The position numbers and the translations under genes are program-made. A DNA stretch of 64,000 bases from Patescibacteria group bacterium (GTDB taxonomy: Bacteria > Patescibacteriota > Patescibacteriia > Patescibacteriales > Patescibacteriaceae): NCBI GenBank assembly GCA_030583705.1, contig CP129471.1, forward strand, positions 362,506 through 426,505. Direction: 5' to 3'. Of this stretch, positions 8,521 through 12,618 are shown piece by piece (positions within the stretch are counted from its first letter, which is position 1; every line of letters begins with the position of its first letter). Below the pieces are notes generated by a model, which was given only the letters and a program-made list of their open reading frames with translations, made no database searches and was not told the origin of the DNA.

Positions 8521-9333
8521 ATGCAACAAACTTTTGCTTGGATTATTCTAATTATTGCTATAGTTATTATTTTGTTTATCATTAGCCGTAAGTTCATGAT
8601 TCTGGCTAATGTTGATGTTGAGCAAATACAGCGTGAGAAAAATGCTTTACTAAAACAACAAATAATTATGAATCAATTGCAGCGACGTTTTAGTCATTGG
8701 GGTTGGTTTTTCCTAAGAGTCCTTAAACCTTTTTCTCGTTTTCTGCGTAATAGCTTTGATTGGCTTTATGACACACTTAACAATTGGCAAAAATCACAAG
8801 CTAATCGTGAGGCTATGTTAGGGCAAGCTATAGACGAAAGAATAGAGGTCTTGCTCTTAGAGGCTGAGATTTTGGTTAAAGACGAGCGTTATGATTCGGC
8901 TGAAAAAAAATACATTGAGATTATTGGGCTTGATTCTAAGAACTTTAAAGCCTTTCGTGAGTTGGGTGAAGTTTATTTGTATAAGCATTTACTTAAGGAA
9001 TCTATACAGACTCTAGAGCATGCCCTTAACTTAAAGAAGAAGATAGAGGATAAAGAAACAAAAGAAGGGGAGGGTGATTTGGATATTAGCCAGACTAGAT
9101 ATCTTTTGGCTACGGTTTATGAGGAAGCTGGAGATCTAGATAAAGCAGTCGTTAACCTTAAAAGAGCCTTGAAGATTGAAGAAAGCAACCCGCGCTACCT
9201 TGACAGACTTATTGAAGTAAGTATACTTAAAAAGGATAAAGTGGAGGCTTTTAATGCTTATGACAAGCTGCAAAAGGCCAATCCCGAGAATAAAAAACTG
9301 GCTCAATTTAAGGAAAAGATTAGCCAGCTTTAA
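8521..9333 (+). CDS. Membrane-anchored TPR-repeat protein
   Basis: A 270-residue protein with one N-terminal membrane helix (about residues 6-24), a basic linker, and tetratricopeptide-like repeats from about 115 onward (for example ILVKDERYDSAEKKYIEII, AFRELGEVYLYKHLLKESI, YLLATVYEEAGDLDKAVVNL). TPR domains mediate protein-protein contacts, so a scaffold role at the membrane is likely, but the partner is unknown. It begins 10 nt after the aldolase and is followed by the tRNA-Thr locus. Confidence 0.7.
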   Translation: MQQTFAWIILIIAIVIILFIISRKFMILANVDVEQIQREKNALLKQQIIMNQLQRRFSHWGWFFLRVLKPFSRFLRNSFDWLYDTLNNWQKSQANREAMLGQAIDERIEVLLLEAEILVKDERYDSAEKKYIEIIGLDSKNFKAFRELGEVYLYKHLLKESIQTLEHALNLKKKIEDKETKEGEGDLDISQTRYLLATVYEEAGDLDKAVVNLKRALKIEESNPRYLDRLIEVSILKKDKVEAFNAYDKLQKANPENKKLAQFKEKISQL

Positions 9334-9350
9334 TTTTTTCGGCTAAGTAA

Positions 9351-9386
9351 GCCGTTGTAGCTCAGTTGGTAGAGCATCTCCATGGT
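9351..9386 (+). pseudogene. Isolated 5' half of tRNA-Thr (duplicate)
   Basis: These 36 nt are identical to the 5' half of the complete tRNA-Thr that begins at 9528: acceptor strand, D arm, and anticodon stem and loop through GGT. No matching 3' half follows directly. The next 141 nt differ from the intron of the complete copy. They include GCCATGG at 9408-9414, which could pair with the exon end CCATGGT with a G-U pair, as a group I guide sequence would, but CCATGG is self-complementary so this may be chance. Most likely a partial duplication; use as an alternative 5' exon is conceivable. Confidence 0.75.
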
Positions 9387-9527
9387 AATTTTTAACTATC
9401 TTAAGTTGCCATGGAATTGCTCTTTTGGGCAATTAATCTGGAGGTTTTTGGATTTTCACTAGTATGGTTCAGACCTAAATAGGTCATCCTATACTGTGGA
9501 AAACTCTTTAACCGATAGAAGTTTTAC

Positions 9528-9800
9528 GCCGTTGTAGCTCAGTTGGTAGAGCATCTCCATGGTGAGACACATTGTTTTCTTGCCCGCCGTAACAGAAACG
9601 TTTCGGTGTATCCCGAATAACGGTTAAAGTCCGGTAACGGATCAGACCGTGGCGACACACTCGCCCGAACGACTGACAAGGGAGGCTAAGTTTCATTTTT
9701 GAAATATGCCTAAGATACAGTCTAACCCTCTTATAAGGTATTACCGAAATTGAGGTAGAAGTGAAGGAGAAGGTCACCGGTTCAAGCCCGGTCAACGGCT
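9528..9800 (+). tRNA. tRNA-Thr(GGT), interrupted by a group I intron
   Basis: Exons 9528-9563 and 9764-9800 join to a complete 73-nt tRNA. The acceptor is GCCGTTG/CAACGGC, the D arm GCTC/GAGC, the anticodon stem TCTCC/GGAGA with loop ATGGTAA (anticodon GGT), the T arm ACCGG/CCGGT with loop TTCAAGC, and the discriminator base is T. The 200-nt intervening sequence lies directly 3' of the anticodon. CCA is not encoded. The 5' half is duplicated at 9351-9386. Confidence 0.9.
9564..9763 (+). ncRNA. Group I self-splicing intron in tRNA-Thr
   Basis: Core pairings can be traced by eye. P1 is exon ATGGT with GCCGT (9586-9590), with a U-G pair at the 5' splice site. P3 is TCCC/GGGA. P5 is ACGGT/ACCGT, enclosing TCCG-GTAA-CGGA. 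P6 is GGCGA/TCGCC. P7 is GACTG/CAGTC, with the S element AAGATACAGTCT. P8 is a hairpin just before S. The intron ends in G (9763), as group I introns do. The order and the R segment GACTGACAAGGGAG resemble cyanobacterial tRNA-Leu introns (IC3 type). No homing endonuclease is encoded. Self-splicing is inferred, not shown. Confidence 0.85.
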
Positions 9801-9823: not shown

Positions 9824-9877
9824 AAAATAAAAAAAGAAAACCGCTTTTCAGGTGGTTTTCTTTCTGAAAAAGCGGTT
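9824..9877 (-). terminator. Terminator of the minus-strand membrane-protein gene
   Basis: Read on the minus strand, AACCGCTTTTTCAG pairs with CTGAAAAGCGGTT and is followed by TTCTTTTTTTATTTT. A second, overlapping stem (9833-9842 with 9854-9863) faces the opposite way and cannot form together with the first. The region may stop transcription from both sides. Confidence 0.8.
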
Positions 9878-10436
9878 ATTTACTTAATAGGGTGGTGTCG
9901 GATTGTAGGAAATCTATTAGTTCCTCTTTACTTAACTCCTTAACCTTGTCAAGAAACTTTTCTTTGGGAGTTTGCATTCCTATTTCATCTCTTTCTTCCA
10001 CTGTTAATTCTTGAATCTCTTTTTTTAAACTCAAGTGAAGAAAATCAGTAATATCACTTGGAATCTTTTGAGCAGAGGAGTCGGAAGTTATAAAATTACC
10101 AACTGATCCACCGGCAATAATTAATAGGCAGTCTTTTTTCGTGGGAGTAAGAGCATACCCCATCCACGTTACAAACCATAACACCAAGAAAGTATAAAAG
10201 AACTTCATACTATGCTTTTTACCCAAATCCCAACTTCTATAATCGGGGTTTTTCTTATCTTCCTCTTCGTTTTTTAGTTTTTCTCCAGAAATAGAGCTTG
10301 ATTTGCCTACTGAAAATACAATCGCTAGTATGAAAAATACAATAGCAAAAAACGTAAACCAGTCGCTTGCTACATCAAAAAAACGTTTAACTCCGTCAGC
10401 GACGGTTACCCAGTAAAATATTGTATACCAGTCCAA
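9876..10436 (-). CDS. Hypothetical membrane protein
   Basis: A 186-residue protein not recognised as a known family. Two hydrophobic segments are visible (about residues 23-43 and 76-97), separated by a charged loop rich in Lys and Glu. A soluble C-terminal tail (about 125-186) has predicted helical, acidic character (KEIQELTVEERDEI, KVKELSKEELIDFLQ). It has its own promoter (10477-10505) and terminator, sits between an intron-bearing tRNA and an insertion sequence, and looks like an accessory gene. Confidence 0.6.
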   Translation of the reverse strand: MDWYTIFYWVTVADGVKRFFDVASDWFTFFAIVFFILAIVFSVGKSSSISGEKLKNEEEDKKNPDYRSWDLGKKHSMKFFYTFLVLWFVTWMGYALTPTKKDCLLIIAGGSVGNFITSDSSAQKIPSDITDFLHLSLKKEIQELTVEERDEIGMQTPKEKFLDKVKELSKEELIDFLQSDTTLLSK

Positions 10437-10476: not shown

Positions 10477-10505
10477 ATCTTAGTATATCTTCTAATTAAT
10501 GTCAA
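10477..10505 (-). promoter_or_regulatory. Promoter for the minus-strand membrane-protein gene
   Basis: On the minus strand: TTGACA (10505-10500), a 17-nt spacer and TAAGAT (10482-10477), about 40 nt upstream of the ATG at 10436. It lies just outside the left end of the insertion sequence. Confidence 0.55.
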
Positions 10506-10519
10506 TAGGTCGCTGTGTC

Positions 10520-11395
10520 TCATGTCAAATGCGACATAGTGAATTCCTTGGGGGTTTGCATATTTAGCCCCATGTGAGGCCGTTTGTTAAGATAATAGTC
10601 TAAAAACTCCTCTACTCTCTTTTGTACCATAGGCAAGTCTTTTTTACGATATCTCCAGTACCCCAGACACTCTTTTCTTAAAGTACCATTAAATTTTTCA
10701 ATGAAGGCCTGGTCGTTCTTCTTGTAAGGTCGTGAGGTACGAATAAAGATGCCTCTTTGTCTAGCTTCGGTGTCCCAATGATCTTGAAACTCCGGACCAC
10801 CGTCTCGTTGAATCTTGTCTACTGTACCAAACCATTGGAGTTGTTTTTGGAGGGCCTCTTTCCCAGCTAAAGATGTGAGGTTGTCTTGGATCACTACACA
10901 GGACTCTTTAGTGAAGATATCTATGGCAGTGAAAGCAAAGAGTTCTCCCAAGACTACGGTGTCTACTTGAATCACTTCTCTTGGTTTTTCGGCCTTTAAA
11001 ACCGGCCCTCGTCTCTGGTATTTCTTCCATTTACTACGTAATTGGTACTTTTCTCCCAGGATGCGGTAAATGGTACTCACCCCTACAGACAAACCATGGT
11101 CTCTTTGCAGGATATAGCGTATCTTTTGACCGCAGCAATTTCTATATTCTTCACGAATAGTTAAAACCTTGGCTTTAAGGGCTGGATTTACCTTACGGTT
11201 ACGTCGACCTCGTTTAGCATTTTGGTAACTTGCAAGGAACTGGTGAAAGCCCATTTCCTTAATTCCGGCCAGCCAACGATACACGGTGGCGCGGTGCAGA
11301 CCCAATTTAGCTGGAATCTTTTCCGGGCTTACCCCGCTGCCATAGAGTTGCCAACAAACGTGAATTGGGGTTATCCTATCTATGAAATGTGACAT
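10520..11395 (-). CDS. IS481-like DDE transposase
   Basis: An integrase-fold transposase that would move the surrounding element. The N-terminus has a helix-turn-helix (GLHRATVYRWLAG, about residues 32-44), then a second DNA-binding segment (VSTIYRILGEKYQL). The rve catalytic core has D in IQVDTVVLG, D in KIQRDGGPEF and E in QAFIEKFNGTLR. The C-terminus has the typical YYLNKRPHMGLNMQTP. The length of 291 residues is near full for the family, and no frameshift is seen, so it may be active. The coding region runs into the element's terminal repeat at the stop, giving the C-terminus MSHLT. Confidence 0.9.
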   Translation of the reverse strand: MSHFIDRITPIHVCWQLYGSGVSPEKIPAKLGLHRATVYRWLAGIKEMGFHQFLASYQNAKRGRRNRKVNPALKAKVLTIREEYRNCCGQKIRYILQRDHGLSVGVSTIYRILGEKYQLRSKWKKYQRRGPVLKAEKPREVIQVDTVVLGELFAFTAIDIFTKESCVVIQDNLTSLAGKEALQKQLQWFGTVDKIQRDGGPEFQDHWDTEARQRGIFIRTSRPYKKNDQAFIEKFNGTLRKECLGYWRYRKKDLPMVQKRVEEFLDYYLNKRPHMGLNMQTPKEFTMSHLT

Positions 11396-11446
11396 AGTGT
11401 TTCTTTAGTGATTTAGACCTCTAAAGTATATCACTATGTCGCATTT
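10527..11446. mobile_element. IS481-like insertion sequence with 16-bp inverted repeats
   Basis: A 920-bp unit bounded by a perfect inverted repeat: AAATGCGACATAGTGA at 10527-10542 and its reverse complement at 11431-11446. One transposase fills nearly the whole length on the minus strand. A third, near-identical copy of the motif (AAATGTGACATAGTG) overlaps the transposase start codon near 11386-11400. No convincing target-site duplication is visible outside the repeats, so the exact ends are uncertain by a few bases. Confidence 0.85.
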
Positions 11447-11575
11447 TTAATTAGAATACAGCGTAGGTGCTTTTTTTTTAAAAAAAAGGAGGGGGGCAGC
11501 AGTCTACTTAGTTGCTTTCTTGAATAAATAAAAAGTTAAGCAAAGAGCAGGTAGGCTGGGTTATTCTAGTAGCTA

Positions 11576-11694: not shown

Positions 11695-11777
11695 GGGTCG
11701 GTACCGAAGCGGTCAAACGGGGCAGACTGTAAATCTGTTGGCTTTCGCCTTCGTAGGTTCGAATCCTACCCGGCCCA
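11695..11777 (+). tRNA. tRNA-Tyr(GTA)
   Basis: A class II tRNA. The acceptor is GGGTCGG paired with CCGGCCC (one G-T pair). The anticodon loop is CTGTAAA with anticodon GTA, there is a long variable arm, and the T arm is GTAGG-TTCGAAT-CCTAC. The discriminator is A; CCA is not encoded. It is followed by rpmG and tRNA-Gly, probably on one transcript. Confidence 0.93.
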
Positions 11778-11799
11778 CTTTTAAGAATAATTTTTGTTT

Positions 11800-12165: not shown

Positions 12166-12618
12166 ATGGGAACAACAAGATTTCTTAAAAATTATACCCA
12201 GCAAGGTTGTGAACAAGCCTTGAATGAGGGTATTAGTGTTGGGGTTGTCGGGAGTGTATGCCCAGTAACAGATAAAATAGATACTCCACACAGAGTGCAG
12301 GAAGTAAAAGAAGGAGATAGAATTATTGGTTATATTATCCATAAACTTGATCTTTCTCAAAGCGATGACTGGGGTAAATATTTTAATCTTATTAAAGAAA
12401 AGCCCGGTCAACGAATTCCAGGTTTTCCGTTTTCTGTAAGATGGCCAAAGATGTATGGAGGTAAAAAATACCAAATTATTACTGTGGGCGGAGAAATATT
12501 CGAGGCTAGAGTAGATGATTCTCGCGAATATATGAGTGAGGGACTAGAGTGGAATACAGAAGAGGGAAATAAAGAGAAACAATTAGTTGCCGCTTGGAAG
12601 GAATTGTGGCAACGTTGA
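12166..12618 (+). CDS. Hypothetical protein
   Basis: A 150-residue soluble protein not recognised. No signal peptide or membrane segment is visible. The sequence has mixed alpha/beta character (GVVGSVCPV, DRIIGYIIHKL, KYQIITVGGEIFEARV) and ends with acidic and amphipathic stretches. It has its own promoter overlapping the tRNA terminator and its own terminator at 12642-12673, so it is a single-gene unit. It belongs to the accessory-looking stretch between the insertion sequence and gtrA. Confidence 0.6.
   Translation: MGTTRFLKNYTQQGCEQALNEGISVGVVGSVCPVTDKIDTPHRVQEVKEGDRIIGYIIHKLDLSQSDDWGKYFNLIKEKPGQRIPGFPFSVRWPKMYGGKKYQIITVGGEIFEARVDDSREYMSEGLEWNTEEGNKEKQLVAAWKELWQR

Follow-up and report, generated by a model that had tools for sequence, protein, structure and literature searches.

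The stretch analysed here (the window) is 64,000 nt of contig CP129471.1 from the Patescibacteria group bacterium assembly GCA_030583705.1. It holds a tRNA-Thr(GGT) gene that is interrupted by an intron and preceded by a second copy of its own 5' half, between a TPR gene and a tRNA-Tyr gene. The features, numbered from the first base of the window, are as follows.

8521-9333: TPR gene, left of the putative displaced tRNA-Thr 5' half
9200-9227, + strand: promoter-like TTGACA-16-TATACT, within the end of the TPR gene
9351-9386, + strand: putative displaced native 5' half of tRNA-Thr(GGT), here copy 1 (from identity; the intact gene of the same-genus genome G003 stands there)
9382-9388, + strand: ATGGTAA, anticodon loop at the left junction, presumably the 7-bp overlap for recombination (from sequence)
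9387-9527, + strand: presumed left-end segment of an element, 141 nt (from homology to the G115/L069 segment, which precedes an integrase)
9528-9563, + strand: exon 1 of the putatively element-borne tRNA-Thr(GGT) (from ARAGORN and sequence)
9564-9763, + strand: predicted group I intron between tRNA positions 36 and 37, inside ATGGTAA after ATGGT (from alignment and structure)
9764-9799, + strand: exon 2 of tRNA-Thr(GGT) (from ARAGORN and sequence)
9876-10436, - strand: 186-aa ORF with no family match; it may be cargo of the element or have been inserted later
10500-11466, - strand: IS481/IS3-like insertion sequence (transposase 10520-11395), a later insertion (from an identical second copy)
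11695-11778, + strand: tRNA-Tyr; in G003 this gene adjoins tRNA-Thr on the right as its native neighbour

Neither ARAGORN nor Rfam reports the unspliced tRNA-Thr locus. With the 200-nt intron (9564-9763, last base G) joined out of 9528-9799, ARAGORN calls tRNA-Thr(ggt), which bears out an earlier, sequence-only reading of this DNA in which the gene was broken at 36/37 by an intron of that length. That reading had named another intact tRNA-Thr(GGT) gene as grounds against it, and a search of the window genome, a single contig of 869,590 bases, found no second copy. At window position 12400, 14 nt match exon 2 within an open reading frame that has no surrounding tRNA, and a match to GGTTCAAGCCC at G000:839644 is not a tRNA half; both were discarded. 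The TTGACA-16-TATACT site agrees with the consensus at 11 of 12 positions, two such sites being present against 1.2 expected in shuffles, and motifs of similar type, read by eye, occur at the equivalent place in relatives. This site may be the promoter that natively serves the tRNA locus.

When 192 relatives were searched at the DNA level, ten further loci proved to contain the intron, always at the same tRNA position. We aligned 16 introns and fitted to them a P1-P9 structure drawn up manually from a single one; under it, 90.4% of cells are paired, and 31 of the 52 pairs are changed on both sides. The covariation score was 0.441, against 0.150 for shuffled versions (0/500) and at most 0.157 for slid ones. 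P4 and P7 are invariant and so add nothing to this covariation. The U-G at the 5' splice site and the terminal G are each present in 16/16 introns, so that these two features, like the P1, P3 and P5-P8 pairings that had been proposed from the one sequence, hold in homologues. The core helices P3-P8, including P7, are accompanied by a conserved J8/7 motif of AAGAUA type, in keeping with group I, as are the U-G and terminal G. The Rfam Intron_gpI check that had been suggested did not lend its support: RF00028 at its gathering score, which is a detection threshold and not a biochemical criterion, gives no match in the window, and the best intron homologue reaches 21.8 bits against a threshold of 50 bits. 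Because this threshold is not reached, group I membership rests on structure. With covariation on P1-P9 in 16 homologues behind it, the assignment of the intron in this tRNA-Thr(GGT) to group I, of the predicted self-splicing type, is supported.

No homing endonuclease gene was found inside the intron. The IMG/VR contigs L139 and L141 contain the intron's exact string GCCCGAACGACTGACAAGG, near an ORF that reads like a GIY-YIG nuclease, and these contigs make a phage source for the intron type possible. Rfam, applied to viral contigs bearing the intron's P7 string, matched a different intron only.

The doubling of the 5' half is as exact as had been claimed. Copy 1 (9351-9386) is identical to exon 1 over all 36 nt, agrees with it at 38 of 39 nt over 9348-9386, and precedes it with a spacing of 177 nt. 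Four other genomes (G083, G136, G111, and G115) carry a doubled 5' half at spacings of 164-200. Across the class it occurs in 8 of 381 genomes (7/291 genera), with none for a reversed-pattern control, and among ~85,000 species genomes the tandem pattern was found in 18 DNA stretches, all titled as Patescibacteria lineages or just "bacterium" and some of them among the genomes just named. Among the 192 relatives, 4 of the 11 intron-bearing genomes have it, compared with 1 of 181 others (p = 3e-5, ancestry ignored). A layout of a 5' half, 117-164 nt, and a complete tRNA-Thr(GGT), often with a Xer-like integrase, is present in ~20 Patescibacteria. Locus L078 has a third tRNA-Thr 5' half ~108 nt before the left junction, ahead of the doubled pair, as if it had been struck more than once. 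Five intron-bearing relatives have an ORF with an HTH-like start upstream of the tRNA (L003 807-1493, L007 882-1496, and counterparts in L004, L006, and L009), which in L004 and L006 runs into the first bases of the tRNA.

Earlier, the two 5' halves had been suspected of competing for the single 3' half, with GCCATGG in the intervening segment as a possible guide sequence. Neither suspicion survived comparison. Copy 1 is without the intron's P1-extension strand; the supposed guide lacks conservation, with ATCATAG in its place in G115's homologous segment (CCATGG is also its own reverse complement); and in relatives copy 1 pairs with an orphan 3' half. Splicing competition is therefore rejected, and the doubling does not serve splicing.

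Insertion into the anticodon loop predicts an orphan 3' half at the far end of the element. Such a half was found first in G111 and then in 13 of 20 whole genomes searched; the other seven yielded none. Every one of the 13 begins exactly at ATGGTAA, and no tRNA 5' half precedes those read with their flank (in G461, just 13 bases precede it on the contig). G285 has additional 3'-half debris beyond its orphan half. In six genomes the orphan lies on the contig and strand of copy 1, delimiting elements of 6.5, 8.3, 8.6, 13.6, 19.9, and 34.4 kb, and right ends are alike within groups, with ATTG, TATAC, or GATAACC ahead of ATGGTAA. Joined, copy 1 and orphan were called tRNA-Thr(ggt) by ARAGORN in 12/12 pairs tested; the acceptor stem pairs fully in 10 of these and has a single mismatch in the other 2. 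For G136, G203, G461, and G466, the orphan fits the acceptor strand of copy 1 at 7/7 positions and the 5' strand of the element tRNA at only 4-6 of 7; from this better fit, the two displaced halves were once one gene.

Empty sites point to the same position. The congener G449 has the intact gene, with which the left flank of G111 aligns up to ATGGT and the right flank from ATGGT, which locates the insertion in ATGGT(AA); likewise, G141 is an empty site for G285 at the nucleotide level. Relatives thus have displaced target fragments at both ends together with an uninterrupted counterpart. Restoration of the Islander type, in which native and element tRNA parts are joined, is not what is found, as the complete tRNA is inside the element and the right end has no 5' half. 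In IMG/VR, we searched for attP circles and attP strings, doubled halves, and the integrase and found none.

A tyrosine recombinase begins soon after the tRNA in most non-Saccharibacteria cases with enough sequence. These recombinases are 34-78% identical to one another; for the one that was run against NCBIfam, the match is Xer-like and stays under the XerC/XerD equivalog cut-offs. Phage_integrase matches were obtained in G111, G459, and G463, with related recombinases in others, such that the relatives' elements do contain a tyrosine recombinase. The G463 element is a tailed prophage with terminase, tape measure, major tail protein, endolysin, and integrase. By family matches alone, on which the defence-like gene names rest, the other elements include two tyrosine recombinases with SIR2, HEPN/AbiU2, and Panacea-domain genes (G111), three recombinases and a SIR2-like gene (G459), a SoFic-like gene (G455), and a helicase like PDC-S37 (G285).

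The window copy is more eroded. Same-genus G003 has the order TPR, intact tRNA-Thr, tRNA-Tyr, and copy 1 stands at the place of the G003 tRNA-Thr. The 141-nt segment after copy 1 (9387-9527) is homologous to that of G115, with a score of 50 against 22.7 +/- 4.3 (0/300). This pairwise match alone is significant; an HMM of ten other segments did not find the window segment. It opens with AATTTTT, where most non-Saccharibacteria relatives have AATAAA. From copy 1 to tRNA-Tyr is 2.3 kb, including the 967-bp insertion sequence, whose transposition appears recent because a second, identical copy stands at G000:609390-610356. No integrase lies beside the window tRNA, and no orphan 3' half was found in the window genome. 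With both integrase and right junction missing, we class this copy as a decayed relic rather than an element, and the case for it rests on relatives.

In same-genus G002, the intact tRNA is preceded, at a distance of 24 nt, by a 5' half that is interrupted; at ~5900-6025 in L085 (G002), and before the upstream ORF in L004, 5'-half remnants are broken by inserts that are short and palindromic, such as GCCCCGTC..GACGGGG, which suggests that small repeats land in dead tRNA pieces. Within window 9371-9432, AGAGCA..TCC of copy 1 and GGAATTGCTCT of the segment are complementary, and GGAATTGCTCT recurs in the segment of L066; this could be a candidate recombinase-binding site.

Taken together, we consider it very probable that an integrative element split the host tRNA-Thr(GGT), bringing a complete spare tRNA with it, and that this locus preserves the left end of that element, now decayed. 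The most fitting interpretation of the upstream half is that it belonged to the native tRNA gene, whose 5' part was displaced when this element cut it. A tyrosine recombinase, presumably the adjacent Xer-like enzyme, would join attP to the ATGGTAA anticodon loop of the host gene; crossover would separate the native halves, putting the 5' one at the left junction and the 3' one at the right, with a whole tRNA-Thr(GGT) in the same direction 117-164 nt inside the left end. Because this complete tRNA lies collinear with the host promoter, the host would keep its tRNA, which in the window would require the group I intron to be spliced out. The element circle would have a junction of the ATTG-ATGGTAA-TAAACAGG type. 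As for the relic, recombination between the two 3' halves may have deleted the element body.

A local tandem duplication of the 5' part of the tRNA, with the first copy then losing its 3' part, would need no mobile element, and it is consistent with the 36-nt identity of the two window copies and the lack of an orphan 3' half in that genome. However, the same layout with similar spacing occurs in many distant genomes, the orphan 3' halves of relatives are precise, acceptor strands match the orphan and not the neighbouring tRNA, and the window segment is homologous to that of an integrase-bearing relative; we regard such a duplication as improbable. It has also to be considered that an upstream nuclease cut an intronless tRNA and that repair copied the nuclease gene, the 5' exon, and the intron, with the old 5' half staying behind upstream and the 141 nt being a nuclease remnant. 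The ORF of 205-229 aa immediately upstream of exon 1 in five relatives would suit this, but it has no endonuclease family or fold match (searches of Pfam, NCBIfam, and PDB families returned none, and a low-confidence model gave no clear fold match), and the loci that have it are without a clear second 5' half. Homing would also not yield two gene halves far apart and leaves the orphan 3' halves unexplained, which makes it very improbable.

We find it harder still to credit a functional RNA, with the 5' half and segment acting as a regulator or decoy, or as an alternative, competing 5' exon. In the window, copy 1 and the segment fold far better than shuffles (z = -6.4), and several intronless elements retain the full anticodon arm at the left junction. 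Yet 20 aligned segments share no consensus fold outside the tRNA part, the guide motif varies, and the orphan partner accounts for copy 1.

Group I introns in bacterial tRNA genes are known from cyanobacterial tRNA-Leu and others. The present intron resembles these in its anticodon-loop position, 5' U-G, terminal G, and P3-P8 core, and differs in its Thr(GGT) host, its score under the Rfam threshold, the absence of an ORF of its own, and its carriage by an integrative element in several genomes. Group I introns have also been reported in tRNAs of circularized, mostly CPR, genomes (PMC8172020). Islander describes a regenerated tRNA and one displaced fragment, with 3760 islands having 3' and 159 having 5' fragments (PMC4383910). 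The elements here share with those islands a tyrosine recombinase, an anticodon-loop crossover, and displaced tRNA fragments at their ends. In Islander islands, however, a tRNA fragment restores the target and one displaced fragment is left, whereas in the present elements displacement affects both native halves, and near the left end there is a tRNA gene that is complete and separate. We found no description of this arrangement in the literature searched, most subscription journals being outside its scope.

An element of this design may target an apparently single-copy tRNA gene, since it breaks the gene and supplies a whole spare. The arrangement explains the apparent lack of tRNA-Thr(GGT) in automatic annotation of some Patescibacteria genomes, and it offers a sequence signature for locating prophages, and islands that carry defence-like genes, in a phylum of which little is known.

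The spare tRNA of such an element would itself be an integrase target. Of 10 intron-bearing elements, 8 have the same 5-bp anticodon stem as the host, and all 10 share its three loop-proximal pairs; of 10 intronless elements, all 10 have a different stem, and 8 differ within the three proximal pairs. Fisher's test gives p = 7e-4 both for the full stem and for the proximal pairs with kinship ignored, and true independence is below what the test assumes because some of the elements are closely related, notably five copies from Saccharibacteria. The pattern suggests a masking role for the intron, which would keep the integrase from the spare tRNA; the stem differences could also come from a foreign origin of that tRNA. 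The fuller proposal, that an intron placed in the 7-bp overlap hides the spare tRNA-Thr from the element's own and related integrases and that intronless elements instead alter the stem read by the integrase, is a tentative one that we lean slightly against. Archaeal elements have been described as tRNA-intron vectors (Sugahara 2012, as cited in PMC8371274), and introns have been proposed to shield tRNA genes against integration (Randau and Soll, as cited in PMC4390854). As in the archaeal cases, a mobile element here carries a tRNA intron; those introns are removed by protein enzymes, whereas this one is a predicted bacterial group I intron and lies in a spare tRNA belonging to the element itself. 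Whether tRNA introns guard tRNA genes from integrating elements, as has long been proposed, thereby becomes testable, as the intron-bearing L066 and the intronless L069, with its changed stem, have integrases that are 72% identical.
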